Shown here: positions 44,609 to 57,861 of the stretch, one piece after another | How positions within the stretch are numbered: the first letter of the stretch is position 1 | Layout: each line of letters opens with the position of its first letter | Source of the DNA: Tetrapyrgos nigripes | Lineage: Eukaryota; Basidiomycota; Agaricomycetes; Agaricales; Campanellaceae | Reading direction: 5' to 3' | NCBI GenBank assembly: GCA_013368315.1 | Contig: JAACJM010000201.1 | Span: 1-64,000, forward strand | DNA: 64,000 bases | Position numbers and translations under genes: made by a program | Notes under the pieces: model-generated | What the model was told of the DNA's origin: nothing | What the model saw: only the letters and a program-made list of their open reading frames with translations | The model's database searches: none

Positions 44609-46575
44609 GTGTCTGCCTTGTCATCTTCGTCTGCTCAGTCTGTTACATCTGCCCCATCTGCCCCATCTGCCTTGTCTGCTTTGTGTGCCCTGTCTGCCTT
44701 GTCTCTGCTCTGTCTGCCTTGTCTGCCTTGTCTGCTCTGTCTGCTCTGTCTGCCTTGTCTGCCCTGTCTGCCCCATCGGCCTTGTCTGCCCCGTCTGCCT
44801 TGTCTGCCCCGTCTGCCTTGTCTGCTCCGTCTGCCTCGTCTGCTCTGTCTGCCTCGTCTGCTCTATCTGCCTCGTCTGCCTCATCTGCTTCGTCTGCCTT
44901 GTCTGCTTCGTCTGCCTTGTCTGCTCTGTCTGCCTTGTCTGCTCTGTCTGCCCCGTCTGACTCGTCTGCCTTGTCTGCCTTGTCTGCCTTGTCTGCTTTG
45001 TCTGCCTTGTCTGCTCTGTCTGCCTTGTCTGCTCCGTCTGCTCTGTCTGCCTCGTCTGCCTCGTCTGCTTCGTCTGCCCCGTCTGCCTCGTCTGCTCCGT
45101 CTGCCTCGTCTCCTCCGTCTGCTCTGTCTCCTCCGTCTGCCTGGTCTGCTCCGTCTGCCTGGTCTGCTTCGTCTGCTCCGTCTGCTCTGTCTGCTTCGTC
45201 TGCTTCGTCTGCCTCGTCTGCTTCGTCTGCCTCGTCTGCTTCGTCTGCTTCGTCTGCCTCGTCTGCTTCATCTGCCTCGTCTGCCTCGTCTGCTTCGTCT
45301 GCCCCAGCTGCCTCGTCTGCTCCGTCTGCCTTGTCTGCCCCGTCTGCCTTGTCTGCCCCAGCTGCCTCGTCTGCTCTGTTTGCCTCGTCTGCCTTGTCTC
45401 CTCCGTCTGCCTCGTCTGCTTCGTCTGCCTCGTCTGCCTCGTCTGCTCCATCTGCCTCGTCTGCCTCGTCTGCCTCATCTGCTTCATCTGCTTCGTCTGC
45501 CTTGTCTGCCTCGTCTGCTTCGTCTGCCTTGTCTGCCTTGTCTGCTTCGTCTGCCTTGTCTGCCTCGTCTGCTTCGTCTGCCTTGTCTGCCTCGTCTGCT
45601 TCGTCTGCCTCGTCTGCCTCGTCTGCCTCGTCTGCTTCGTCTGCCTCGTCTGCCTCGTCTGCTTCGTCTGCCTCGTCTGCCTCGTCTGCTTCGTCTGCCT
45701 CGTCTGCCTCGTCTGCTTCGTCTGCCTCGTCTGCCTCGTCTGCTTCGTCTGCCTCGTCTGCCTCGTCTGCTTCGTCTGCCTCGTCTGCCTCGTCTGCTTC
45801 GTCTGCCTCGTCTGCCTCGTCTGCTTCGTCTGCCTCGTCTGCTTCGTCTGCCTCGTCTGCCTCGTCTGCTTCGTCTGCCTCGTCTGCCTCGTCTGCTTCG
45901 TCTGCCTCGTCTGCCTCGTCTGCTTCGTCTGCCTCGTCTGCCTCGTCTGCTTCGTCTGCCTCGTCTGCCTCGTCTGCTTCGTCTGCCTCGTCTGCCTCGT
46001 CTGCTTCGTCTGCCTCGTCTGCCTCGTCTGCTTCGTCTGCCTCGTCTGCCTCGTCTGCTTCGTCTGCCTCGTCTGCCTCGTCTGCTTCGTCTGCCTCGTC
46101 TGCCTCGTCTGCTTCGTCTGCCTCGTCTGCCTCGTCTGCTTCGTCTGCCTCGTCTGCCTCGTCTGCTTCGTCTGCCTCGTCTGCCTCGTCTGCTTCGTCT
46201 GCCTCGTCTGCCTCGTCTGCTTCGTCTGCCTCGTCTGCCTCGTCTGCTTCGTCTGCCTCGTCTGCCTCGTCTGCTTCGTCTGCTTCGTCTGCCTCGTCTG
46301 CTTCGTCTGCCTCGTCTGCCTCGTCTGCTTCGTCTGCTTCGTCTGCCTCCTCTGCTCCGTCTGCCTCGTCTGCCCCGTCTGCCTTGTCTGCCCCGTCTGC
46401 CCCGTCTGCCTTGTCTGCTCCGTCTGCCTTGTCTGCTCCGTCTGCCTTGTCTGCTTCGTCTGCCTTGTCTGCTCCATCTGTCTTGTCTGCCTTGTCTGCT
46501 CCGTCTGCCTTGTCTGCCTTATCAGCTCTGTCAGCCCCGTCTGCCTCTTCTGCCTCATCTGCTCCGTCTGCCTCG
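44609..46575. repeat. Tandem array, left half: TCTGCCTCG-type 9-mers
   Basis: About 2 kb of 9-base units, TCTGC followed by YTCG, CTTG, CCCG or TCCG. From about 45580 to 46300 these settle into a homogeneous 27-base unit TCTGCCTCG-TCTGCCTCG-TCTGCTTCG. The edges are more varied, as expected if unequal exchange homogenises the middle. No unit contains a stop codon, so all frames stay open; I do not call a gene. Confidence 0.9.
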
Positions 46576-48240
46576 ATGATACAAGGCAGACAAGGCCGAC
46601 AAGGCAGACGGGGCAGACGAGGCAGCAGACAGGGCAGACAAGGCAGACAAGGCAGACGGGGGCAGACGAAGCAGACAGAGCAGACGAGGCAGATGGAGCA
46701 GACGAGGCAGACGGAGCGGACGAGGCAGACGAGGCAGACGGAGCGGACGAGGCAGACGAGGCAGACGGAGCGGACGAGGCAGACGAGGCAGACGGAGCGG
46801 ACGAGGCAGACGAGGCAGACGGAGCGGACGAGGCAGACGAGGCAGACGGAGCGGACGAGGCAGACGAGGCAGACGGAGCGGACGAGGCAGACGAGGCAGA
46901 CGGAGCGGACGAGGCAGACGAGGCAGACGGAGCGGACGAGGCAGACGGAGCAGACGAGGCAGACGAGGCAGACGGAGCGGACGAGGCAGACGAGGCAGAC
47001 GGAGCGGACGAGGCAGACGAGGCAGACGGAGCGGACGAGGCAGACGAGGCAGACGGAGCGGACGAGGCAGACGAGGCAGACGGAGCGGACGAGGCAGACG
47101 AGGCAGACGGAGCGGACGAGGCAGACGAGGCAGACGGAGCGGACGAGGCAGACGGAGCGGACGAGGCAGACGAGGCAGACGGAGCGGACGAGGCAGACGA
47201 GGCAGACGGAGCGGACGAGGCAGACGAGGCAGACGGAGCGGACGAGGCAGACGAGGCAGACGGAGCGGACGAGGCAGACGAGGCAGACGGAGCGGACGAG
47301 GCGGACGAGAGCGGACGAGGCGGACGAGGCGGACGAGGCGGACGAGGCGGACGAGGCGGACGAGGGCGGACGAGGCGGACGAGGCGGACGAGGCGGACGA
47401 GGCGGACGAGGCGGACGAGGCGGACGAGGCGGACGAGGCGGACGAGGCGGACGAGGCGGACGAGGCGGACGAGGCGGACGAGGCGGACGAGGCGGACGAG
47501 GCGGACGAGGCGGACGAGGCGGACGAGGCGGACGAGGCGGACGAGGCGGACGAGGCGGACGAGGCGGACGAGGCGGACGAGGCGGACGAGGCGGACGAGG
47601 CGGACGAGGCGGACGAGGCAGACGAGGCAGACGAAGCGGACGAGGCAGACGAGGCAGACGAAGCAGACGAGGCAGACGAGGCAGACGAAGCGGACGAGGC
47701 GGACGAGGCGGACGAGGCGGACGAGGCGGACGAGGCGGACGAGGCGGACGAGGCGGACGAGGCGGACGAGGCGGACGAGGCGGACGAGGCAGACGAGGCA
47801 GACGAAGCGGACGAGGCAGACGAGGCAGACGAAGCAGACGAGGCAGACGAGGCAGACGAAGCGGACGAGGCAGACGAGGCAGACGAAGCGGACGAGGCAG
47901 ACGAGGCAGACGAAGCGGACGAGGCAGACGAGGCAGACGAAGCGGACGAGGCAGACGAGGCAGACGGAGCAGACGAGGCAGGGCAGACGAGGCAGACAGA
48001 GCAGACAAGGCCGACGGAGCAGACAAGGCAGTCGGGGCAGACAAGGCAGACAAGGCAGACAGGGCAGACGAGGCCGATGGGGCAGACAGGGCAGACAAGG
48101 CAGACAGAGCAGACAGAGCAGACAAGGCAGACAAGGCAGACAGAGCAGAGACAAGGCAGACAGGGCACACAAAGCAGACAAAGCAGATGGGGCAGATGGG
48201 GCAGATGTAACAGACTGAGCAGACGAAGATGACAAGGCAG
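46576..48240. repeat. Tandem array, right half: GCAGACGAG-type 9-mers
   Basis: Opposite orientation to the left array, but with its own higher-order units. GCAGACGAG-GCAGACGGA-GCGGACGAG dominates at 46690-47290. A pure GCGGACGAG run lies at about 47290-47620. GCAGACGAG-GCAGACGAA-GCGGACGAG runs from about 47620 to 47960, interrupted by a second GCGGACGAG run at 47695-47790. The two halves have thus diverged, while the outer arms have not. Confidence 0.9.
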
Positions 48241-49492
48241 ACACAGTAGTCTGCCCTTTTCTATTTATATTTCGTAAAATTTAATTAACCTGGTTGAATG
48301 AATTCATTGTATTACATCCTGTAAATTTTCAGTAAGCCCTTCTGTATTACTTAATTGACATACACTGCAAATCCATCCAACAAGTCTCTTGTAAGTCCAT
48401 TGGATATACATGATGACTTACAAAATAGTCACTTTTCAGTAAAGTCATTGTAATGTCTTGTGACTTACAAGTGTCTTACTGTGACCAGTCTGTCACACTG
48501 TATATTCTCCATTTAGCATGCAGGTTTTTTCCAGAGACTTACGAGATAGACTTTTAAAACCTGCAACTTGTAATTTCCTTGTAAAATCACAAGTCTTTCT
48601 AGGGTATTACTGTGACACAGATGTCCCTCCGTAAATTCACTGTAAATATGAGCAGTCTTACCCAAGACTTTCAAGTTCTACCTTCTGGTAAGTCCTCTGT
48701 AAATTTTACTTGGTTTACAAATTGTCTTACTGTGACATTATCTCACACTGAAATACCCTGCTATTTCAGTTCTGTTTTACAAGAAGACATACTGTGACAA
48801 AAAAGTCACCTTGTAATTCCAATGTATGCTCTTCAATGCTATACTGTGACAAAGCCTCACACTGAAAGTCCATGGTATGTCCTTGCAGCTTACAATGGTC
48901 TTTCAGAATAGTCCTCATTTTTTGTCTATTTTGTAATACACTTGTAAGTCAAGCCAACTTACATATTGATTGGTTCCCCATAATACTCTTGTAATACTCC
49001 ATTAAGGCTGAGGATTTACCAGTGTTTGTAGCAAATGTTTCTTGTAATTCCTTCATAATACAGCTAGTCTTACAAGCGTATTACTGTGACTTGATTGTCA
49101 CTTTGTAAATTTCCTGCAGATTTTGCTTCCTTGTAAGTCCTTTGTAAATCTCTCTTGCCTTACTGTTTGTCATACTGTGATTATCTGTCACACTGAAATA
49201 CTCCAGTATTTCCTATGTGTCTTACTACATGACATATTGTGACAAAAAGTCACTCTGAAATTCCTGTGTAATTCCACAGTATATCCACCAAGGGTATACA
49301 GTGACAGCAAGTCACACTGAAAGTCCATGGTATTTCTTTGTGACTTACAATGGTCATACAAGGTTGTTCTAATTTTTTCTGTCTCTTGTAATACTAATGT
49401 ATGACAAGGAGTCTTACATATTGATTGGCTTGGTGTAATACTCTTGTAAAACCTCAGTAAAGCAGAGGATTTACAAGTATTTGCACCCAGTG
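48241..49492. repeat. Right inverted arm
   Basis: Inverted copy of 43361-44608, nearly identical. A visible difference is ACTAAATATAA on the left versus CGAAATATAAA (as reverse complement) on the right. Confidence 0.85.
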
Positions 49493-50448: not shown

Positions 50449-52795
50449 ATGTTCACTTTCCTCCAATTTTCACTTCTCGCCCTTGGTTTATCAGTTGCCG
50501 TTGAGGGAAACCATCTCCTATCTCTGAAAAGTCCTTTCCAGCACAGTAGGGCAAACCTCAAAACGCGTCACGGCGACAGTCTTTTCTCCAGGGATGTTCC
50601 GCTGCCCGACATTGACATCTCGCTCGCGCGACTAGGATCAGAAATGCTCACCTCGACAGCAACCAGTGAAGAAGAAGAAGGCATGAGCCCAGTCCACTAC
50701 CTAGCTGTGCATCCCAGGGTTGATCATGCTCAATCTCTGGCGGAAAGAAAATATGTTTTCATGCACGTTGTACGTACGCGCTTTTCTCCGTTTCTTCACG
50801 CGTTTGCTAATGGCGAGCACCTTTTAGATCGTCGGAAGTGAGTTCTGCCAATTGTCTATCCTTCATAAGACGGCATACAATCTTAACTCCATATCTTATT
50901 CTGGCGAATAGATACGTATGTCTTGCCTTCTCGCTTTTGTGAATTGAAGGGTTTACGCGTCTTCCAGACTCGGACTCTCGTCTGCCACCTGGCTAGCAGA
51001 CTTCCAGCGAATGCAATCCGTTGGCATGTAAGCTCGACCTTCGCGATTCACCATCCACATGAATGAACTAACGTTCTCGTCCTATCTTTGCAGAGACGCT
51101 GTCGCTATGAACATCGGCGGTGACCAGTGGCAAACAGATCAACTTTATTCTGCATATGCTCAGGCTCACAAAACCTCCATCAAACTCTTCATCTCATTTG
51201 ATTATACCGCCTTTCCATGCGATACAGCCGAAACGATTCGTGTCGCTAGTTTGTTTATGGATCATCCCGCCCAGTTTAAGGTTGCTGGAAGACCGATGAT
51301 CTCGAGTTATTCTGGAGTTTGTCTGGGTGTGGATGGATGGAAAGCAGTGAGGAGTTCGACTGGAGGGTTTTTGATGCCGTTTATCTATGGCGAGGATTAT
51401 CAAGATCTAAGAGAGGGCCGGGTTTTCGGTTTCTTTGATTCTTGGTATTGGTGAGTGTGTTTTACTTCTCGGTTCAATTGAAGGCGTATACTCACATCTG
51501 TACGTTAGCTGGGGGTGTGCGTGGCCACAGGGAAACTATGCGAAAAATGTGAGTCGTTGCCTTCGTCAACTCTCCTTGGAGGGTGCTCATGATTCCCGAT
51601 AGACCGTCGATGATCGATATTGTAAGAAAGTCTGCTATTTTCTCAGTGACCTGTGGTGCCAATGACGCTATTCTATTGACAGACATGGATATCTTGGGAA
51701 AGCGTTATGCCACTACCGTCAGCGGTGGAATATAGTATGTTTTCTTCGTTTCTTTTGTTAACATATACTCAGTTAAGCTACCAGCACACACTACGACTAC
51801 AAGAATTTTTACCTCCGTGGAGAAGATTGGTTATTAGCTTCTCGCTGGGAACAACTCTTTGACATGCGCGACCAACTGACGTTTGTGGAGATGGTTACTT
51901 GGTAATATTGTTTCCCTTAGTCTGTCTCAGAGGCTTACTGTTTTTTTTCTTTTCAGGAATGATTACGGTGAATCCGACTAGTAAGTCTCACTCAACCTCA
52001 TTCGGACGTGCATTTGGTTGACCAACGTTCAAAGTTTTGGACCGTTGACTTCTGGCGTACAACCAACCGGTGAGTCGAAGTTTCAGTCAGTCTTGGTCAA
52101 TGGAAACTGATGAAGATCTTTAGGTACGACCTGGGCAACAGGTTTCCCTCATGAAGCTTGGTTAGACATGTCCAAGTATTATATCCACGCGTTCAAGACA
52201 GGTCATTGGCCTGCTGTAGTTGTGAGTCTTTGAGTAGTATTTTCTGTGCAAACAATTCCCTAACAATAACATTTCTTTTTCAGGTCAACGAGGTCTTCTT
52301 TTGGTGTCGTCCTCATCCAGCTAGAGTCAATGCGATGAACGATCCCCTTGGAAAGCCTTCTGGATGGGATTGGGGAAGAGTGCGTACACCCCGTTGTTAC
52401 TCCCTTGTCTCGAATCCTCGTTCTGATTCTGACTATCATAACAGGACGCAGTCTGGATAGTCGTATTCTGTGCTTCGTCACATTGTGAAGTCGACATCTT
52501 GATGGGCTCACGTCAACAAACGTTTACCGGTCTTTCTCGCGGTGTTTCCAAGGTCAAAATGGATTTGGGAGCAGACGATGCAGGACCTATTACAGTCAAG
52601 ATGTTTACTTTCATCGCAACACCCGCTGGTCCTGGTCGGAGGGTACAAGTCGCTGAACATTCTACGCAAGGGGCGTTTGAGTTTGAGCAGTCTACGCAAT
52701 TGTGTAAGTCCGAGGCTTGACGTGTCTTACGGTGAACTGACTGGCTGTTGCGTATTGCAGATAATTATAACGTGTATGTTGGTAGGGCGAGGTAG
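50449..52795 (+). CDS. GH71 alpha-1,3-glucanase (mutanase), copy 1
   Basis: Secreted endo-hydrolase of wall alpha-1,3-glucan. The signal peptide is MFTFLQFSLLALGLSVAVEG. After a variable propeptide-like region the GH71 domain begins at KYVFMHV. It continues with IVGNT, ATWLADFQRM, VGIDAVAMNIGGDQWQ, KLFISFDYTAFPCD, PMISSYSGVCLGVDGWK and WGCAWPQGNY. TWNDYGESDY holds likely catalytic acids, and FPHEAWLDMSKYYI follows. The tail region has VFFWCRPHP and ends TQLYNYNVYVGRAR. The gene is split into many small exons, including 10-nt (50828-50837) and 4-nt (50912-50915) microexons that are both needed to reach ATWLADF in frame. No frame breaks. A paralogue with the same microexons lies convergently at 55386-57861. 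Confidence 0.9.
50828..50837 (+). other. 10-nt microexon of GH71 copy 1
   Basis: ATCGTCGGAA between TTTTAG and the donor GTGAGT. Encodes IVG plus one base of Asn. Confidence 0.8.
50912..50915 (+). other. 4-nt microexon of GH71 copy 1
   Basis: ATAC between CGAATAG and the donor GTATGT. It gives two bases of Asn and two of Thr, moving the phase from 1 to 2 so that the next exon (50968-51027) reads into TWLADFQRM. Confidence 0.75.
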
Positions 52796-54824: not shown

Positions 54825-54904
54825 GGCGAAATGGCCGAGTGGTCTAAGGCGCTAGAATCAGGATCTAGTCTTTCGGGGCGTGGGTTCGAATCCCACTTTC
54901 GTCA
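54825..54904 (+). tRNA. tRNA-Leu (CAG)
   Basis: 80-base class II tRNA. The acceptor GGCGAAA pairs with TTTCGTC (one G-T). D arm GCC/GGC; anticodon stem CTAGA/TCTAG with loop ATCAGGA gives CAG (54859-54861). The long variable arm is TCTTTCGGGGC. T arm GTGGG-TTCGAAT-CCCAC, discriminator A. Internal Pol III boxes are intact, no intron. The long variable arm and A73 fit leucine, decoding CUG. Confidence 0.95.
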
Positions 54905-54921
54905 CTAGGATAAGCATGTTC

Positions 54922-55385: not shown

Positions 55386-57861
55386 CTAACTCAACCCAGA
55401 GGCCATAGCCTTCCCAACATACACATTATAATTATCTGCAGAACGCTGTCCGTTAGCCACACCACACCCCAATTAGACTAAAGAAAACCACTTACACATT
55501 TCGGGAAACTGACTATACTCAAACGACCCTTGTGTAGAATGTTCTGCAACTTGTATCCTCTCAACCTCAAATGACGGGGTCGTGATTGAAAGATACATCC
55601 TGACCCCGATAAACCCTTCGTCATCTGATCCTAAATCCATCTTAATCTTCGAGACGCCTGTAGGGAGACCAGGATACATTTGATGTCTTGAACCCATCCA
55701 GAGTTCGACGTCACAACGAGCAGTGCAGAAGACGATTGCCCAGAGGGCGTCCTGTGGCGAACAAACAGTTATTATGACGGTTAACAGGATTGAGCTAAGT
55801 AAGGATGATGTGGACGTTGTAATGGACTCACACTCGCCCAATCCCATCCTGTCGGTTTTGTCAATCTGTCGTTCAAAGCATTTGCTGCAGCCGGATGGGG
55901 CCGACACCAAAAGTACACCTCGTTCTCCTGCAAATACCGTTAGGGTATATACAACGTCTGGCACTCGTCACCCACAGTTACAATAGGCCAAGAACCCGTC
56001 TTGAATGCCTCAATGTAATATTGGGACATATCCAGCCAAGCATCGTGAGGAAAATTCGTTGCCCATGTCGTACCTGGAGAAGTTCTAAATGATATATATG
56101 TTGGAAGGAAGTCCCGCTCACCTTCTGGCTGCAATCCAGCAGTCAAAGGTCCAAAACTTGACCACTCGGCGTTCAGCCATCCGCGTCAAGAAAAAGTGTC
56201 GTTGAAGACTTACTAGTCTGATTCACCAAAGTCATTCCTGTATACGTTTGAGCATCATATAACACACACAAATTCGTAAAATTAATTACCAGGTAATCAT
56301 CTCGACAAACGTCAGTTGGTCGCGTAGGTCAAAGAGCTGTTCCCAGCGAGTAGCTAATAACCAGTCTTCTCCCCGAAGGTAAAAATTCTTGTAGTCGTAA
56401 TGCGTGCTGATGTCTGAGGTGAGTATATGCTAAAGAACGATGAGCAAAGTGAAAAGACGTACTATATCCATCCACTAATGGTAGTAGCATATCTCTTTCC
56501 CAAGATATCCATGTCTGTCAACAGCATTAGTTATGGTTCTATACTCTTCAGACAGCAACCTACAGTAGTGATCATCTGCAGTCTGCAGGACAATACCCTT
56601 GAGCAACTTTTCAGAGAGTAGACAAAACGCCGGCTCACGTTCTTTGAATAATTCCCCTGTGGCCATGCGCATCCCCAACTACAAAAAGCATGAGTATATG
56701 TTCTCACAGACGCAAAATACGTCAAATCACTCACCAATACCACGAATCCAGGAACCCCCAGGTCCTAAACGGAGATGTGCATAATCAGATGAAATCCAAG
56801 TGAAAGGTGACTGTGGTTCCATACATATCCTTCCTCAAATCCTGATAATCCTGCTCATACGTAAACGGCATCAAATACCCTCCAGTCTTACTCCTCACTT
56901 CCTTCCACCCATCCACACCCAAACAAGTCCCGGAATAACTCGAAATCATCGGTTTGCCAGCATACCTAAACTGAGCGGGATGATCTTGAAAATTGTTGAT
57001 ATACCGAATTGTTTGAGCTACGTCGCAGGGAAAGGCGGTAAAGTCGAAAGAGATGAAGACGCGGACGGACGTTTTAGCTGCCGCTTCGTATGCGAAGTTC
57101 AATTGTTGATCGAATTGCCATTGGTCGCCGCCGACGTTGAGAGCGACGGCGTCTCTGGAAGGATATGAGTGAAGTTGGGTGGTTGAGGAGTGCGGGACCT
57201 TACATGCCGCACGATTCCATTCTCTCAAAATCGGAGAGCCAGGCGTCAGGCGTGTATTGGTATCTGGAGAAAGACACGTAAAATGCTCAGTTCAAACTGT
57301 CTGGAAAGACGAACTGGCACAACGTACGTATCTGTCCACCAAAGTAAGCCATCGACCCAATCCTACACGCATCACATAGCAAATCGACAAGTAAAACTCA
57401 CTTCCAACAATCTAAACCAGCATCATTCATCAGAAAACGCGTCCATAAATCAAAGAAAAACGCGTACATACATGATGCATGAACACATACTTCCTCCTCG
57501 CTGACGATGCAGGGCTATCAGGCTCTTCGTCATTCGAATTCGAAAGACCAGGAGGAAACTCTAATGAGCCGCCCATGCCCCCAGGCAAGAGTGGTGGTTC
57601 TTGCAATTGACCCGCTCCTGGAAGAGGTAACGCATTTAATCCCAGTTCCTCTAGCGTGATTGAGTCGGCGCCGGTGTTGGGAAACACGTCGACATCTCTA
57701 GGGTGAAGCCGCAGACTACGATCTTGTAGACCATCGAGATGGCCCAAATCAACTTCAATAAGAGGTTGAGAGGGTGACATGAACCTTTTTCCGTGAGTGG
57801 TCACCGATAGCCCAAGGGCGAGAAGCGAAAATAGGATGAAGGAGGCCATTGAGAGGCACAC
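55386..57861 (-). CDS. GH71 alpha-1,3-glucanase (mutanase), copy 2
   Basis: Paralogue of copy 1 on the opposite strand, with the same role and order. The signal peptide lies in MASFILFSLLALGLSVTTHG (57849 is an alternative start). A variable region rich in Pro, Leu and Gly follows, then KYVFMHH. IVGNTYQYTPDAWLSDFERM comes next, then DAVALNVGGDQWQFDQ, RVFISFDFTAFPCD, PMISSYSGTCLGVDGWK and WGCAWPQGNYSKN. The gene ends VYVGKAMASGLS with TAG. GNTYQYT is the standard GH71 sequence here, and it is only obtained by using a 10-nt exon (57402-57411) and a 4-nt exon (57328-57331). Both sit at the same protein positions as in copy 1. No frame breaks seen. The tandem inverted pair suggests duplication and inversion around VTI1 and the tRNA. 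Confidence 0.9.
57328..57331 (-). other. 4-nt microexon of GH71 copy 2
   Basis: Minus-strand ATAC between GGACAG and the donor GTACGT. Identical in sequence and position to the 4-nt exon of copy 1. Confidence 0.8.
57402..57411 (-). other. 10-nt microexon of GH71 copy 2
   Basis: Minus-strand ATTGTTGGAA between GTTTAG and the donor GTGAGT; IVG plus one base, as in copy 1. Confidence 0.8.

Follow-up and report, generated by a model that had tools for sequence, protein, structure and literature searches.

Predicted consecutive 10-nt and 4-nt microexons in two inverted sister GH71 genes of Tetrapyrgos nigripes

Introduction

Among the described systems closest to the present one are the microexons of plants (1-15 nt), which are likewise tiny, not a multiple of three in length, essential for the reading frame and easily missed by annotation, and for which adjacent pairs are documented, as with two neighbours of 5 and 12 nt within a rice transcript (PMC8831610, PMC4674806). 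According to the same sources exons of a single nucleotide, those of APC11 in Arabidopsis and of VPS55, have been validated in plants by RT-PCR. The plant microexons are RNA-validated and conserved across plants, whereas the pair described here is fungal and is predicted from the DNA of two sister GH71 copies in one genome. Within the basidiomycetes, the P450 genes of Phanerochaete chrysosporium are rich in small introns and small exons, some exons being as short as 6 bp (PMC1184071); they belong to a different family, and their small exons, which encode 2-10 amino acids, were deduced partly by prediction. Filamentous fungi are represented by Trichoderma virens Xlr2, in the report of which functional microexons are presented as previously undescribed in these organisms and microexons in fungi as otherwise little described (PMC11121469). 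The Xlr2 microexon is alternative, depends on glucose and lies in a regulator gene, whereas inclusion in the genes considered here looks constitutive. The accessible text of a Cryptococcus study (PMC3990503) gave nothing on exon size, and no report of a 4-nt fungal exon was found in the accessible text of the open-licence literature that was searched.

Here we describe two inverted sister genes of glycoside hydrolase family GH71, each of which very probably contains consecutive microexons of 10 and 4 nt where the catalytic domain begins, with introns that would be removed by intron definition. A first-pass annotation of the locus had placed an exon of 4 nt near the lower size limit for spliced exons, which was overstated in view of the 1-nt plant exons validated by RT-PCR and the 6-bp exons of basidiomycete P450 genes. 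We regard the GH71 microexons as a predicted example of a known phenomenon, well supported by the sequence.

Results and Discussion

Two inverted GH71 genes

The window, that is the whole stretch of 64,000 nt that was analysed, holds two GH71 genes that are inverted relative to each other, copy 1 on the forward strand (50449..52795; 15 exons, 508 aa) and copy 2 on the reverse strand (55386..57849; 16 exons, 532 aa). Both full gene models were assembled manually, guided by splice signals and homology. In these models all 29 introns (14 in copy 1 and 15 in copy 2) are of the GT-AG type and 48-80 nt long, and copy 2 has one extra intron (56824-56765) relative to copy 1. Further small exons of 19, 24, 35 and 40 nt are present in both models; those of 19 and 24 nt lie at matching positions, 51603-51621 and 51957-51980 on the forward strand in copy 1 and 56582-56564 and 56237-56214 on the reverse strand in copy 2. 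A tRNA-Leu (CAG) gene is situated between the inverted copies at 54825-54905.

The predicted protein of copy 2 matched the PF03659 profile with 326.2 bits and that of copy 1 with 314.6 bits (curated cut-off 34 bits), covering profile positions 1-358 and 1-365 of 375, respectively. As predicted from their sequence, both genes are full-length GH71 alpha-1,3-glucanase homologues, and these scores bear out the earlier assignment of the two as GH71 paralogues. Relatives of copy 2 in the Protein Data Bank are Agn1 of S. pombe (8yfh, 9m6l) and AnGH71C of A. nidulans (9fnf). The catalytic acidic pair of AnGH71C is reported as Asp265/Glu268 (PMC12394665). The acidic pair DxxE is kept in copy 2, which reads TWNDFGES at the place of TWNDYGES in Agn1 and WNDYGES in AnGH71C; copy 1 reads TWNDYGES, so that both copies fit WND-x-GES.

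Two consecutive predicted microexons restore a GH71 motif

Exon 1 of copy 1 (50449..50769, forward strand) ends in KYVFMHV in phase 0 and is followed by intron A (50770..50827, 58 nt, GTACGT..AG). Next comes a 10-nt exon, ATCGTCGGAA (50828..50837, read as I-V-G-A..), which is preceded by TTTTAG and followed by the GTGAGT donor of intron B (50838..50911, 74 nt, ending in AG), a donor that contains a rival GT at +4. The 4-nt exon ATAC (50912..50915) lies between GAATAG and GTATGT, and intron C (50916..50967, 52 nt, GTATGT..AG) leads to the 60-nt exon 4 (50968..51027). On the reverse strand copy 2 has the same order: exon 1 (57472..57849), ending in KYVFMHH in phase 0; intron A (57412..57471, 60 nt, GTATGT..AG); the 10-nt exon ATTGTTGGAA (57402..57411), followed by GTGAGT; intron B (57332..57401, 70 nt, GTGAGT..AG), again with a rival GT at +4; ATAC (57328..57331), between GGACAG and GTACGT; intron C (57264..57327, 64 nt, GTACGT..AG); and the 60-nt exon 4 (57204..57263), which begins ATACCAATACACG (..Y-Q-Y-T). 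In both copies these are internal coding segments of at most 15 nt (10 and 4) with AG before and GT after, and the sequence agrees with the first-pass annotation on their coordinates and flanks. They are consecutive and not nested, as they had been called.

When exon 1, the 10-nt exon, the 4-nt exon and exon 4 are joined, copy 1 reads KYVFMHV-IVGNT-LGLSSATWLADFQRM and copy 2 reads KYVFMHH-IVGNT-YQYTPDAWLSDFERM. In copy 1, ATAC supplies the rest of the Asn codon and the first two bases of the Thr codon, and most of the N-T of the GNT motif is encoded by ATAC, the same residues as in S. pombe Agn1. With the microexons included, copy 2 (VFMHHIVGNTYQYTPDAWLSDF) aligned with Agn1 (VVAHFIVGNTYPYTVSNWEEDI), which reads IVGNTYPYT where copy 2 rebuilds GNTYQYT. 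In this protein-level comparison Agn1 is homologous across the catalytic domain and has IVGNTY(P/Q)YT in common with copy 2. AnGH71C, compared at the same level, has a homologous catalytic domain but reads VGIVENYT at the place of the motif, so GNT is not universal in GH71. The rebuilding of GNTYQYT in copy 2, noted earlier, was supported. In copy 1 GNT alone is rebuilt, after which LGLSS (50968-51000) stands where copy 2 and Agn1 have YxYT. Judging from the predicted protein, a change of function in copy 1 through this replacement is possible.

The two-microexon path compared with other splice paths

Omission of either microexon, or of the two together, led to early stops in both genes. We enumerated all frame-keeping, stop-free splice paths that run from nine codons before exon 1 ends to halfway through exon 4, with GT-AG introns of 35-220 nt and at most four introns, which gave 302 paths for copy 1 and 416 for copy 2. 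By protein score, i.e. similarity to two GH71 reference peptides, the path through both microexons ranked first, with 43 against 35 for the next path in copy 1 and 62 against 51 in copy 2. It was also at the top of both sets of paths by the combined protein and splice score, where the splice matrices were trained on 23 introns from the hand-built models of the same two genes and the summed splice scores reward paths with more introns. Its splice score per intron was 12.4 in both copies (37.2/3). Against three alternatives, the PF03659 match was also better, with 326.2 vs. 321.7 bits in copy 2 and 314.6 vs. 310.0 and 308.2 bits in copy 1. Of the paths enumerated, the one through the two microexons is thus the best in either paralogue by protein and by combined score, which supports the microexons proposed in the first-pass annotation. 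Paths with internal exons of 3, 6, 11, 12, 13, 20, 23, 26, 27 or 39 nt all scored lower.

Single signals around the microexons vary in strength. Intron C has one of the weaker donors in both copies (4.6 and 4.8 bits, against a range of 4.2-10.7 over the 29 introns), and the intron B acceptor of copy 1 is weak (1.7 bits). A loose branch-point candidate (YTNAY) occurs in all four B and C introns, but also in 26 of the 29 introns overall, and the stricter form CTRAB in one of the four.

The first-pass annotation had further held that the next exon is in frame only with both microexons. Plain skipping does give early stops, but the claim is not strictly right, since the frame is also kept by a single 14-nt exon that uses the second GT of GTGAGT as its donor (GGAAGTGA|GT) and skips ATAC, so that IVGNT becomes IVGSE. 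To this alternative we give a small chance. It is in frame and free of stops in both copies, its protein score places it second in copy 2 and fourth in copy 1, and it would draw on a described class of splice sites, the tandem GYNNGY donors (PMC2423196, PMC8055015); the GTNNGT form is found in 21 of the 29 donors of both genes. However, the donors it needs, GTTCTG and GTTTTA, are poor. The one intron that takes in ATAC would measure 126 nt in copy 1 and 134 nt in copy 2, and the splice score per intron is 8.8 and 6.8 (17.5/2 and 13.5/2) against 12.4. It also loses the N-T that is present in Agn1 and at 13 paralogous places, scores 4.6 and 4.5 bits lower to PF03659, and leaves AG|ATAC|GTAYGT at matching places in both copies unexplained. 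Our conclusion in favour of the two microexons thus holds because of the encoded residues and the splice strength.

The same second donor might serve as a frame-safe switch. The skipping of a 4-nt exon, or of any exon of 1 mod 3 length, would be made frame-neutral by a second GT four bases downstream, and in both copies GNT changes to GSE with the frame intact if ATAC is skipped and the +4 donor is used. That the genes make two isoforms in this way (GNT and GSE at the start of the catalytic domain) seems to us improbable.

Other combinations of splice sites are very improbable. Replacing ATAC in copy 1 by a 39-nt exon (IVGNTYVLPSRFCELKAD) gives the path that is second by protein score (35 vs. 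43), but its PF03659 match is lower (308.2 vs. 314.6 bits), as is its splice score, and among the copy 2 paths listed it has no counterpart. We give virtually no credence to the idea of decaying genes in which the supposed microexon does no more than patch a frameshift, as the many GH71 copies in this genome with stops inside their matches might suggest, since the remaining exons are all open, the introns are GT-AG in 29 of 29 cases, the acidic pair is kept, dN/dS is about 0.24 and the same solution is common to both copies.

Chance and divergence of the copies

How often such a solution arises by chance was estimated by dinucleotide-shuffling the stretch from the 10-nt exon to exon 4 with its first 6 and last 3 bases fixed (n=5000), in a test that did not admit the 14-nt alternative. 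A fit to GH71 as good as that of the real sequence was reached by the best frame-restoring internal exon in 2 of 5000 shuffles for copy 1 and 15 of 5000 for copy 2; these two results are not independent because the copies are homologous. Any frame-restoring internal exon of at most 40 nt was found in 1486 (copy 1) and 3910 (copy 2) of the 5000 shuffles, and a frame-restoring 4-nt exon of any sequence (AG|NNNN|GT) in 229 and 1092. Since frame-restoring 4-nt exons are not rare in shuffled DNA, it is the residues that are significant, and restoration of the frame alone is weak evidence.

The copies are identical at 325 of 503 aligned residues and at 65 of 135 shared fourfold-degenerate sites, and the NG86 estimates are dN 0.27 and dS 1.11 (dN/dS about 0.24). 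The arrangement is accordingly common to two diverged paralogues, as had been claimed, and from this divergence we conclude that enough time has passed for the copies to lose it, while both have kept it. Introns B and C of the two copies align above shuffles (z 3.4 and 3.2), but introns 1, 6 and 8 do so too (4.6, 3.7 and 3.9), so intron similarity is not special to the microexons.

Proposed splicing and origin of the microexons

Under intron definition the efficiency of splicing is reported to depend on how long the intron is, exon length being immaterial, and Prp40 to be needed where exons are too small to hold enhancers (PMC8624252). The introns that flank ATAC (52-74 nt) would be recognised pairwise by intron definition, each short intron being excised as a separate GT..AG unit, with the 4-nt exon as the remainder between two such units. 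GGAA, ATAC and the next exon would then be joined to encode Gly-Asn-Thr of the GNT(Y) motif, with GGAAATAC as the spliced junction. A remainder of 4 nt should be no obstacle to intron definition, above all if the introns are removed sequentially. The RNA is presumed to be spliced via both microexons, and we infer that their inclusion is constitutive because plain skipping breaks the frame.

On the simplest reading of the sequences, the GNTY exon was once unsplit, and in the common ancestor of the two copies it either gained introns B and C or had one of them move into it; the ancestral unsplit state would read GGAAATACATAC. It may also be that intron C is the one that follows GNTY in the paralogue C56, displaced by 4 nt, a shift that requires two compensating changes.

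Distribution in the genome

A search of the 98.5-Mb genome with the spaced pattern, both strict and loosened, gave exactly two matches, the two copies in the window, and the reversed control gave none. The same genome contains at least 99 exon-level matches to PF03659. With a peptide pattern applied to 31 fetched stretches, the motif was found unsplit at 17 other GH71 places (13 GNT, 3 GNS and 1 GST), two of which are 213 bases apart on C298 and several of which may belong to broken genes; an unsplit RHMVGNTF at about 61 kb on C298 escapes the pattern. One such unsplit form, HHMVGNTFPYT, occurs on C13, C50, C280, C298 and C454, and the peptide pattern gave no GNT match in the paralogues C48, C122, C139, C304, C388 and C452. 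Within the 42 fetched loci and the window, which was also the scope of the nucleotide pattern for the 10-nt exon, a pattern for unsplit VGNTY matched only C56, where MVGNTY lies in an apparent 22-nt exon (boundaries by eye). Because the motif is unsplit at the 17 other places, the microexon arrangement may be confined to this pair, and the first-pass idea that automatic gene callers would mis-annotate the whole clade was not supported. A search of viral contigs for relatives gave no match.

A block tree paired copy 1 with copy 2 (99/98). The tree had 14 rows and a block of 72-86 residues, with long branches flagged, and we use only the sister relation of the copies; its rows were nine paralogues with an uninterrupted match, C56 (two exon matches joined), the two copies and the two PDB proteins, interrupted paralogues being left out.

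If RNA confirms the models, the 4-nt exon would be a fungal exon smaller than the 6-bp exons reported for a basidiomycete, adjoining a second microexon and lying inside a motif common to characterised GH71 enzymes. Sister genes with a split motif beside 17 unsplit places in one genome make a convenient case for studying how two introns end up separated by 4 nt, and the same genes suit the question of how very small exons are spliced. For annotation, a gene caller could settle on the 14-nt exon, which would alter two motif residues without any frame error being flagged.

GH71-like genes have expanded on C13, C280, C298, C454 and C50, where many similar copies are found, several with internal stops. 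Decayed fragments similar to exon 10 of copy 2 were seen at L051 (C248, 79% protein identity), L052 (C121, 79%) and L053 (C317, 68%). The stretches on C248 and C121 look near-identical by eye well past the exon, as if a piece of GH71 had been carried by a repeated element.

The window also contains a 3.6-kb satellite with a 9-nt unit (44611-48242) that switches strand midway, with (GTCTGCCTC)n at 44611-46575 and its reverse complement (AGGCAGACG)n at 46584-48242. This may be either an imperfect palindrome of very great length or a join made in assembly, and a jump in base composition coincides with the strand switch.
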